Source of the DNA: a virus
Virus record (IMG/VR): IMGVR_UViG_3300006802_000452
Location: 1-26,824 of that record
Strand: one strand, 5' to 3'
Length of the DNA stretch: 26,824 nucleotides
Shown here: in pieces, positions 449 to 26,019 of the stretch
Numbering within the stretch: the stretch's first letter is position 1
How the letters are laid out: the number at the start of each line of letters is the position of its first letter
Position numbers and translations under genes: made by a program
Notes under the pieces: model-generated
The model's database searches: none
Seen by the model: only the letters and a program-made list of their open reading frames with translations
What the model was told of the DNA's origin: nothing

Positions 449-1294
449 TTAAACACCTCCTAAAAAGCCCCTAGTGACAGTTAGATCACCCTTATCTGTA
501 GCATTTCCTGTGGTAGTGGTTGAGTCTATGTAATCAATTATATTTTTACCACTACCCCCACCAAAAAAGCCATAAGTAGCACCACTAACACCAGCCAACG
601 CCCACCTAGCAACGGTAAGATCGCCCTTGTCTGTGGCATTGCCCGACGTTGTTGTTATATTAATATAGTCTATTGTATTTAAAATACCTGTATCTACCCC
701 CCCACCAAAAAAGCCATAAGTAGCACCACTAACACCAGATAAAGAATACCTAGCAACGGTAAGGTCGCCTTTGTCTGTGGCATTGCCCGACGTTGTTGTT
801 ATATTAATATAGTCTATTACATTAGATTGAGTCCCTGTATCACCTCCTCCGTAATAACCATAAGTACTTCCCGAAGAATTGCCGGTAGATGACCTAGCAA
901 CGGTAAGGTCGCCTTTGTCTGTGGCATTGCCCGACGTTGTTGTTATATTAATATAGTCTATTACATTAGAGTAACTCCCAGCATACCCCCCACCAAAAAA
1001 GCCATAAGTAGCACCATTAGTCCCAGTCACGCCTTCTCTAGCAACGGTTAAATCTCCTTTGTCCGTAGCGTTGCCGGTACCGGTGGCTAAAGTTATATAA
1101 TCAATAATATTTTGGTTAGCCCCTGAAACAGTACCGCCTGCAAAGAAGCCATAAGTAGCCCCCCGTGTTCCACCGACAGCATTGCGCCCAACAGTTAGAT
1201 CGCCCTTGTCGGTCGCATTTCCTGTAGTAGTGGTCAAGTTTGTGTAATCAATAACATTTGAATCGGAAGACCCACCACCAAAGAAGCCATAAGG
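449..1294 (-). repeat. Tandem repeat array inside the fibre gene (about 144 bp units)
   Basis: Six in-frame units of roughly 140-147 bp encode the kelch-like blades. Two units are identical over 79 bases (748-826 and 892-970, offset 144). The unit around 604-675 differs from them at only a few positions over the same stretch. DNA-level identity, beyond what the protein requires, points to recent duplication or gene conversion and gives substrate for unit gain or loss. Confidence 0.85.
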
Positions 1295-24075: not shown

Positions 24076-24469
24076 CGGTTATTTTATTATCTAGCTTGTC
24101 CCATAGAGTCACATTAATATCACCTGTATGATTAATGTTTTGTAAAGGACTAAAGTCGCCTCTTTCGCCAGGGTGTCTTTCTAGCCATTCTTTAGCTGCC
24201 TTATAATCCCCGTCCTGTATATGTTTGATCCATACTTCACGAGCTTTCTCATTGACTTGACTCCTCCAATTATCTACTTTTAGACGAAGCTCGGGATCGT
24301 TCTCAAGCCACGTTTTAAATGTGGAGGCTGCTATGCCTGCTTTCATACAAGCCTTATTAACATTATTCCCTCTTAAAAAATAAGGCTTTAAAACTTCGAC
24401 AACCTTATCTTTGTCCCAAGCTTTACCCTGCTGTCTTTTAGGCTGTATTGGCTTTTCTCCTTGTGCCAT
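24062..24469 (-). CDS. terS: Terminase small subunit
   Basis: The 135-residue protein is placed just before terL and overlaps it. The N-terminal part has a helix-turn-helix (VNKACMKAGIAASTFKTWLE, residues about 37-56) and the middle a helical stretch (EVWIKHIQDGDYKAAKEWLE). The end, HTGDINVTLWDKLDNKITD, resembles the beta-forming tail of phage small terminases. It recognises viral DNA and loads it onto TerL. Its start overlaps the methyltransferase stop and TTAATA is 7 bases before the ATG. Confidence 0.85.
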   Translation of the reverse strand: MAQGEKPIQPKRQQGKAWDKDKVVEVLKPYFLRGNNVNKACMKAGIAASTFKTWLENDPELRLKVDNWRSQVNEKAREVWIKHIQDGDYKAAKEWLERHPGERGDFSPLQNINHTGDINVTLWDKLDNKITDGSN

Positions 24470-26019
24470 TAGTCATTATTAAGAAATATGTTATAGTCAA
24501 TTATTTCACCGTTACGTTTTAAAGTAATTTCTTTGTCTTCTTTTAACATGTAATTAATCCATCTTTTGATTATTATATCGCAATACTTTTCGTCTAACTC
24601 TTGACCATAGCATATACGATTAGTTTGTTCACATGCCATTAGAGTAGAACCAGAACCAAGAAAAGCGTCTAACACAATTCCACCTTTGGGGCAACTGCTC
24701 TTGATTGCTCTTGCACATAAAACTAATGGCTTAGGGGTGGCGTGTCCTCCTGCACTCAACCTTTCACTATTATTAGTTCTTTCAAAATGCCACACATTAT
24801 TCATATTGTCGTGAACATTATCAAAATATGCTCTAGTAGCATAAAATTCTTTTTTTAATTCTTCGTATTCTTTTTTTAATTCTTCGTATTCTTTTTGAAA
24901 GCTACCGTATTCTTTTTGAAAGCTACCGTATTCTTTTTGAAGCTTCGTATAATGCTCCTCGGTAATAAATGCCCACTGGGATTTTGTGAACCAGTGTGAG
25001 TACATATCAACCCCACATATTCTTTTAACATCTTTCGCTTTTAATCCTACGTCATCAGCCATCTTTTTTAACGCAAGCCGAATAGATTCCCACCCCTCAT
25101 AATAGTTATCAGAATTATTATTAAATCCCTGAACTCCACACATTACAAACAGGCACTTTTCATCAGCAAAAGGGTAACTTCTCATACTAACATCATTTTG
25201 ACCTTGACCACACCCCTTATCCCAAGTTATTAAATTTCTAAAGGATACTTTTTGGGCCTCAATCATTGGTCTCAAAATATCGCTAAAAATTTCCATTAGA
25301 GGAACGTCCCCCCCCCAACAATAGAAACTAGCGTTGTCTTTTAAGACGGTAAATTGCAGGGGTACCCAATCTTTGTTAAACTCCAGTATATTACTAAAAT
25401 TTAGATTGTCATTTAGAACCTTTTCGCCAGAAGCACTTTTATATGATACCCCATAAGGCGGATCGTTAAGCCCAAGATCAGCTTTTTCCCCATCCATTAA
25501 CTTCTCTACTGCCTTCACGTCTGTACTATCAGCACAATGTACACGGTGTCCGTTTAACTCGTATAAATCACCTAATATTGTAATAGCTTGAGTTGGTATT
25601 GCTGGGGCTTCGTCCTCTTCAACGTCTGGCTCTATTTCCTCAATATGTATCTCCAACTCGTCTAGTCTTAAATCTAAATAATCTTCTTCGTCTTTTAGCT
25701 CAATTAATATATCATTTAGCTTTACGCCTTCATATTTTCCGCTTATAGCCTGCGAGTTCATTATCACATTGAGTTTTTTCTCTTGCTTTTTGTTTAAATC
25801 TACTATATCACAATAAGCTTCTTCTATTCCTAAATCTTTCATAGCCTTTAATCTCTGATGTCCACTAATTAAAGTCATATCTTTATTTACTATTAAATTT
25901 TCACGTTGCCCAAATATCCTTAAACTTGCCTTTAATCCTTCAAGCTCTTCCTCCTCTATAATTCTAGGATTATAGTCGGCTTCTTTAATTTCTGATAATT
26001 TAATTTTTTTTAAATTCAC
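24469..26019 (-). CDS. ParB-domain DNA methyltransferase (beta class)
   Basis: The 516-residue product starts at GTG, supported by TTAATA 7 bases upstream and no suitable ATG. Residues 1-95 are a ParB/Srx-like domain with the key SGHQR motif (52-56). The methyltransferase follows with motif IV DPPYG (186-190), then the region between motifs that recognises DNA, and motif I DAFLGSGSTL (451-460). Motif IV before motif I with DPPY is the beta class that makes N6-methyladenine or N4-methylcytosine. Residues about 361-392 are a heptad coiled coil coded by tandem 21-bp repeats. Genes like this next to terminases protect phage DNA from host restriction or tag it. No restriction enzyme is visible, so it is an orphan. 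Confidence 0.88.
   Translation of the reverse strand: MNLKKIKLSEIKEADYNPRIIEEEELEGLKASLRIFGQRENLIVNKDMTLISGHQRLKAMKDLGIEEAYCDIVDLNKKQEKKLNVIMNSQAISGKYEGVKLNDILIELKDEEDYLDLRLDELEIHIEEIEPDVEEDEAPAIPTQAITILGDLYELNGHRVHCADSTDVKAVEKLMDGEKADLGLNDPPYGVSYKSASGEKVLNDNLNFSNILEFNKDWVPLQFTVLKDNASFYCWGGDVPLMEIFSDILRPMIEAQKVSFRNLITWDKGCGQGQNDVSMRSYPFADEKCLFVMCGVQGFNNNSDNYYEGWESIRLALKKMADDVGLKAKDVKRICGVDMYSHWFTKSQWAFITEEHYTKLQKEYGSFQKEYGSFQKEYEELKKEYEELKKEFYATRAYFDNVHDNMNNVWHFERTNNSERLSAGGHATPKPLVLCARAIKSSCPKGGIVLDAFLGSGSTLMACEQTNRICYGQELDEKYCDIIIKRWINYMLKEDKEITLKRNGEIIDYNIFLNND
24847..24949 (-). repeat. Five 21-bp tandem units in the methyltransferase gene
   Basis: Two copies of one 21-base unit (24847-24867, 24868-24888) are followed by two copies of a related one (24889-24909, 24910-24930) and a shortened fifth (24931-24949). 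Each unit encodes seven residues: QKEYGSF or KKEYEEL heptads. Unit number can change without breaking the frame. Units also contain runs of five or seven T's. Confidence 0.85.

Follow-up and report, generated by a model that had tools for sequence, protein, structure and literature searches.

A 21-bp in-frame tandem repeat that probably builds a helix between the recognition cassette and the catalytic core of a predicted phage beta-class DNA methyltransferase

The methyltransferase gene and its repeat arrays

The window analysed here is a virus record (IMG/VR) taken at its whole length of 26,824 nt, which encodes phage packaging and head genes. The gene that carries the repeats (Table 1) is located immediately upstream of the genes for the small and large terminase subunits. 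It belongs to phrog_498 (E 1.7e-97) and its neighbours to phrog_4102 and phrog_2, and the same order of methyltransferase and terminase is also annotated in Streptococcus phage vb_Spy_7 and kept in Staphylococcus phage TPWB-09, where a single short hypothetical gene intervenes. The encoded protein matches PF01555 well above the cut-off (120.2 bits against 26.7, E 1.6e-34), while its match to PF02195 stays below (21.2 bits against 26.3, E 3e-4). The ParB_N fold is present in the AlphaFold model of the protein (mean pLDDT 84.5), as structure comparison pairs it with 7bnr_A over 92 residues (Z 14.4, rmsd 1.7), and the methyltransferase part of the model resembles M.BceJIV (Z 24.0), CcrM (22.0) and M.RsrI (20.4).

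In beta-class enzymes, the motifs follow the order IV, recognition region, I. The window protein conforms to this order, with DPPY at residue 186, the array at approximately 359-392 and DAFLGSG at 451, and is a predicted beta-class N6/N4 DNA methyltransferase; the repeat was thus correctly placed between motifs IV and I in the preliminary description. The motif I residues D451, F453, G455, S456 and G457 are invariant in an alignment of 29 sequences. From the sequence and the alignment we infer a role in recognition for the segment SHWFTKSQW. A conserved segment RAYFDNxHDNMNNVWHF comes after the array, and RAYFDNTHDNMNNVW is a conserved segment of these genes, distinct from the array.

Table 1 Features of the methyltransferase gene in the window
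Feature	Position	Strand	Residues	Remarks
ParB_N-like and N6_N4 beta-class DNA methyltransferase gene	24469..26019	(-)		516 aa, GTG start
ParB N-terminal-like domain	25756..26016	(-)	2-88	Pfam match below cut-off, fold match
Motif IV, DPPY	25453..25464	(-)	186-189	invariant in 29-sequence alignment
SHWFTKSQW segment	24973..24999	(-)		presumed recognition region, just upstream of array
Array A, GSFQKEY units	24885..24941	(-)		2.7 copies, 100% matching; two full units and partial LQKEY; mostly coil predicted
Array B, EELKKEY units	24846..24896	(-)		2.4 copies, 100% matching; second of two units ends in F
Motif I, DAFLGSG	24649..24669	(-)	451-457	five residues invariant in 29-sequence alignment

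Tandem Repeats Finder reports two overlapping arrays of period 21 on the minus strand, which together span 24846-24941 and are in frame. The longest exact run at lag 21 in the gene is 36 nt, whereas 2,000 codon shuffles gave no run above 15 at any lag from 6 to 60, and chance repetition is accordingly rejected. The open frame reads KLQ-KEYGSFQ-KEYGSFQ-KEYEELK-KEYEELK-KEF. The in-frame 21-bp tandem repeat of the preliminary description is therefore real, and its count of five units of two types holds when the units are framed as [L/F]xKEYxx; if counted as whole identical units, they amount to two of GSFQKEY and two of EELKKEY/F. The further proposal that each unit is a coiled-coil heptad is only partly right. 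While a helix predicted at residues 378-394 covers the EELKKEY units, residues 366-377, which hold the GSFQ part, are modelled as coil (block pLDDT 71 for 361-370 and 79 for 371-380), and five uniform coiled-coil heptads are thus unsupported in the window protein. The turn that precedes the helix seems to have been duplicated to give the GSFQKEY units.

Elsewhere in the window, a tandem array of period 144 bp lies at 555-1075 (-), with 3.6 copies and 76% matches, in the frame 449-1711. It encodes repeats around YGFFGGG and NVIDYINITTTSGNATDKGDLTVAR; the product is presumably a tail or fibre protein, with no Pfam match.

Unit number and segment exchange among related genes

Relatives were collected in five scans of viral contigs, one of genome contigs and five phage-record stretches. 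These gave 369 loci besides the window's own copy (L001), including cases in which one contig had been fetched again with different flanks; 113 were set aside because no open frame in them held a RAYF-type anchor, and the remaining 256 were reduced to 113 distinct genes, or 110 after removal of three cultured-phage genes. Because identical copies were merged, stable arrays are hidden and variation is favoured in the counts below, all of which come from metagenome assemblies. One locus, L037:35-1525, has an in-frame stop at match residue 347, so that its frame closes within the recognition segment, immediately ahead of the array; a broken gene and a faulty assembly are both possible.

Among 14 gene pairs of at least 95% identity, which are not independent of one another, four differ in the array zone by a multiple of 21 nt. 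By a division made on reading the printed arrays, these are four of the nine pairs with repetitive arrays and none of the five without. The clearest case is that of L100 and L104, which are separated by a single 42-nt gap and are identical in the other 1,575 aligned nucleotides of the gene, L100 having three DELKKEY units and L104 one. Their contigs agree at 99.6% over 9,040 bp and at 100% over 1,348 bp (10.4 kb). L035/L045, L007/L016 and L021/L030 each differ by 21 nt in the array zone, and their contigs are only 88.8-94.4% identical over the shared stretches. Four of the 14 pairs also have gaps beyond the array zone, some of them in the untranslated part that opens a stop-to-stop frame. Frameshift phase variation is rejected, as the unit is 21 bp and all four changes amount to 21 or 42 nt; in phase-variable mod genes the frame is switched by repeats whose length is not a multiple of three, whereas L100 and L104 stay in frame.

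In the window's own phage no variation in unit number was seen in the two contigs available, the window and L002, which carry the same array; L002 is the sole near-identical contig found (3,853 bp with five mismatches and no gaps). The preliminary description had expected unit number to change without loss of frame, and the whole 21- or 42-nt differences among relatives bear this out. It had also set beforehand a fixed number in all related phages and reads as the outcome that would speak against it; the number differs among them, and the expectation stands unrefuted.

The units also carry traces of copying. Same-residue codons seven positions apart in the arrays are identical in 868 of 911 pairs, compared with 912 of 1,242 when the lag is anything but a multiple of seven and with 4,555 of 10,070 random same-residue pairs taken from the genes outside the arrays. 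Since the arrays are uniform at the other lags too, part of this uniformity does not stem from unit copying. A synonymous marker tells the same position apart between L035 and L045, with CAG in all three units of the former and CAA in both units of the latter. Of the 70 genes that have two or more EELKKEY-type units, 39 have units identical over 20 nt; overall, 123 of 2,340 compared positions differ between units within a gene. In pairwise comparisons of genes, the sites fixed between genes and varying within a gene number 1 and 2 of 160 at identities of at least 95% (n = 8), 2 and 8 of 200 at 85-95% (n = 10), and 52 and 35 of 320 at 80-85% (n = 16), so that the concerted pattern rests mainly on the codon comparison, which indicates that the units are homogenised within genes.

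The segment upstream of the array shows another kind of change, which was followed as pairwise identity in 60-column bins up to the anchor. In L019/L066 the identity is 90-96%, then falls to 68, 33, 63, 60 and 86%, and is 86-100% past the anchor. L161/L364 pass from 93-100% (six bins) through 56, 50, 51, 45 and 71% to 93-100% (four bins), and L107/L185 from 90-98% through 61, 45, 70, 51 and 91% to 90-100% (four bins); the latter two pairs diverge again farther out. In such mosaic cassettes some 240-300 nt diverge (more in L007/L076), while the sequence on either side is about 90-100% identical, a pattern which implies that the recognition segment has been exchanged between genes, with the array at its downstream edge. 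As judged from the aligned genes, then, units have been gained and lost as whole heptads among the relatives, and the neighbouring cassette has been exchanged.

The reading that we favour, and consider probable, is that of an in-frame minisatellite which builds a helix between an exchangeable recognition cassette and the catalytic core. A somewhat unlikely but still possible alternative is that of a neutral linker, in which a slippage-prone amphipathic helix can have almost any length and methylation is unaffected. Such a linker would account for the variability, which equally supports the favoured reading, as 89 of the 110 related genes carry anything from one to five heptads and the spacer, measured from the AF residues to RAYF, differs in its length in heptads within 15 of the 20 recognition-segment clusters that hold at least two genes (clusters built with a loose shared 3-mer rule), including three, those of L076, L070 and L034, in which it varies without intact repeats. 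The loss of two units in L104 relative to L100 with no compensating change elsewhere likewise agrees with it. The heptad residues, however, look constrained: of the 263 units identified in these 89 genes, 240 have Tyr at position a, 255 have Leu, Phe or Ile at d, 225 have Lys at e and 258 have Glu or Asp at g, a profile that is partly selected, since the pattern used to find the units itself requires hydrophobic residues at a and d and polar residues at e and g. The spacers argue in the same direction. They could be measured in 105 of the 110 genes (the other five include L002, the twin of the window) and are 16, 23, 30 or 37 residues long in 96; of the nine exceptions three (L075, L205 and L344) had an early AF taken as the anchor. 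For intact arrays, spacing in heptad steps follows from the mutation mechanism. In 34 genes no repeat is detectable, and there 12 have one-unit spacers and 18 of the other 22 have spacers of 23 or 30 residues, which seems to fit a constraint on the phase of the helix, and would equally be expected from common descent.

It is improbable that the repeat is primarily a recombination joint, where the shared heptads offer homology for cassette swaps and length changes are a by-product of crossovers. The drop in identity before the anchor and its recovery thereafter in L019/L066, L107/L185 and L161/L364 would be in line with this, but unit counts change without a swap in L100/L104 and L035/L045, and a joint alone leaves the heptad profile unexplained; as an additional property it is compatible with a helix-building minisatellite. 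An assembly artefact, by which repeats were collapsed or expanded, is very improbable even though all the compared variants are metagenome-assembled contigs, as the repeated stretch in L100 measures about 75 nt (lag-21 run 54) and fits within one usual short read, and the synonymous change in every unit of L035 versus L045 is unlike the collapse of one template.

A second methyltransferase family and cultured phages

A comparable array, (EYEDLRR)n, is found at the equivalent place in a second family, which was fetched with a degenerate pattern derived from the motif EYExLRREYExLRRPF. The pattern matched 70 viral contigs, each in an open frame with two to five heptads; it requires two units, and the counts vary with the pattern used. 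Among the 70 frames, 61 have a D/N/SPP(Y/F/W/V) motif and 53 have FxGxG. Six proteins were checked for domains, three of these frames and those of the phage record vir515 and of N15 and VHML, and PF01555 was found in all of them and PF02195 in none. An alignment of one frame with the window protein extends through both cassette and array at 30% identity (E 2e-34), and vir515, a member of the second family, has a short array, LRREYEDLRREYEDLRRPF. Two-type layouts like that of the window occur in L390, in which two GHLRREY units stand before the EDLRREY units, and in L415, which has one such unit.

Codon identity is again high at lag seven (1,017 of 1,096 pairs, compared with 3,058 of 6,860 elsewhere). 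Unit number differs in 9 of the 33 pairs with flank identity of at least 85%, for instance with five units in L426 and two in L450 at 87.5%, or four in L431 and three in L416 at 89%. Where the 240-nt flanks are identical (15 pairs), the counts never differ, so that turnover is not extreme.

For cultured phages, a search with the recognition-plus-array segment of L100 gave 8 matches in 50,697 phage records and none among plasmid records; no array appears in the four of the eight that were inspected, L082-L085. In N15 gp52, VHML ORF17, SfV orf48 and phiO18P met a heptad-like segment lies, like the array, between the SQWxLP and TDVW segments; unlike the array of the window, its heptads are decayed and by eye non-repeated. 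N15 gp52 has a weak match to the leucine zipper model HALZ (E 2.3e-5, below the cut-off). The 27 N15-like entries among the 30 plasmid records listed, of which N15 itself was the one read, share a single matched length of 1,035 nt, and the length thus looks fixed where the repeat has decayed. As N15 and VHML carry such decayed forms, the segment can be studied in phages in hand.

Proposed mechanism and comparison with known systems

In the AlphaFold model of the L100 protein, the three units form one helix, 386-408 (block pLDDT 93, 91 and 77), preceded by a separate helix, 360-377, and a turn. Each 21-bp unit would correspond to one heptad, mostly with Tyr at a, Leu, Phe or Ile at d, Lys at e and Glu at g, and the resulting amphipathic helix would link the recognition cassette to the catalytic core. 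Units may be gained and lost by slippage or unequal recombination. A heptad of alpha-helix rises approximately 10 Angstrom; one added unit would thus lengthen the helix by two turns, or about 3 bp of B-DNA, and leave the phase of the hydrophobic stripe unchanged. For L100 and L104, a partner within the same chain that tracks the length of the array is rejected, since the gene of L104 has two units fewer and no other difference from that of L100. With the rest of the gene unchanged, the stripe in all likelihood either packs against the corresponding helix of another protomer or stands free. By the rules of coiled coils, Lys at e and Glu at g suit a parallel pair, which makes pairing with a second protomer the simplest reading, a free strut being possible as well.

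The number of units could then set the reach or the pairing of the recognition cassettes, as the TAEL repeats do in type IC enzymes, and a role in dimerisation or target spacing, as put forward in the preliminary description, is plausible. In its most far-reaching form, which is speculative and on balance unlikely, the array would be an adjustable ruler: each heptad gained or lost by slippage would shift the paired cassettes by roughly 1 nm (some 3 bp), one gene would step through a series of methylation targets, swaps would change the half-sites, and both families would be built in this way. Orphan methyltransferases of phages are usually regarded as fixed in specificity; a frame-keeping change of length together with cassette swapping would let phages alter their methylation pattern fast.

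The solved beta-class enzymes M.BceJIV (8urk/9c3s/9c3u), CcrM (6pbd) and M.RsrI (1nw8) have the same catalytic fold as the window protein. Sequence searches, each covering the best stretch of 12 distinct sequences, found no solved structure with the insert. In the enzymes named, the best stretch begins after the cassette, at residue 396 or later, with the exception of M.RsrI, in which it extends over 378-471 and begins within the EELKKEY units. In the titles and abstract openings of the open-licence literature searched, with four unit peptides among the queries, the heptad array is not described.

The closest known system is that of the TAEL repeats in the HsdS subunits of EcoR124I and EcoR124II (type IC). 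One extra four-residue TAEL repeat there widens the gap in the target from 6 to 7 bp, and the repeat number changes by unequal crossing-over with the frame kept (PMC3874165). Both are short in-frame repeats of helical residues that lie beside a DNA-recognition domain and vary in number. The TAEL unit is 12 bp long and present in two or three copies (PMC3874165), whereas the array described here has a 21-bp heptad in one to five copies. The array thus has the helical variable-repeat trait of type IC HsdS, with the number varying among relatives and the helix predicted for all three units in L100 and for half of the array in the window. It differs in its setting, as the TAEL repeats belong to a distinct specificity subunit that has two recognition domains (PMC3874165), whereas here a single chain, matched by PF01555 and, below the cut-off, by PF02195, holds its own DPPY and FxGxG motifs, catalytic motifs of a kind that HsdS lacks. 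Variation in the length of a helical repeat beside a recognition domain, a kind of change known from TAEL, is here found in stand-alone phage beta-class methyltransferases.
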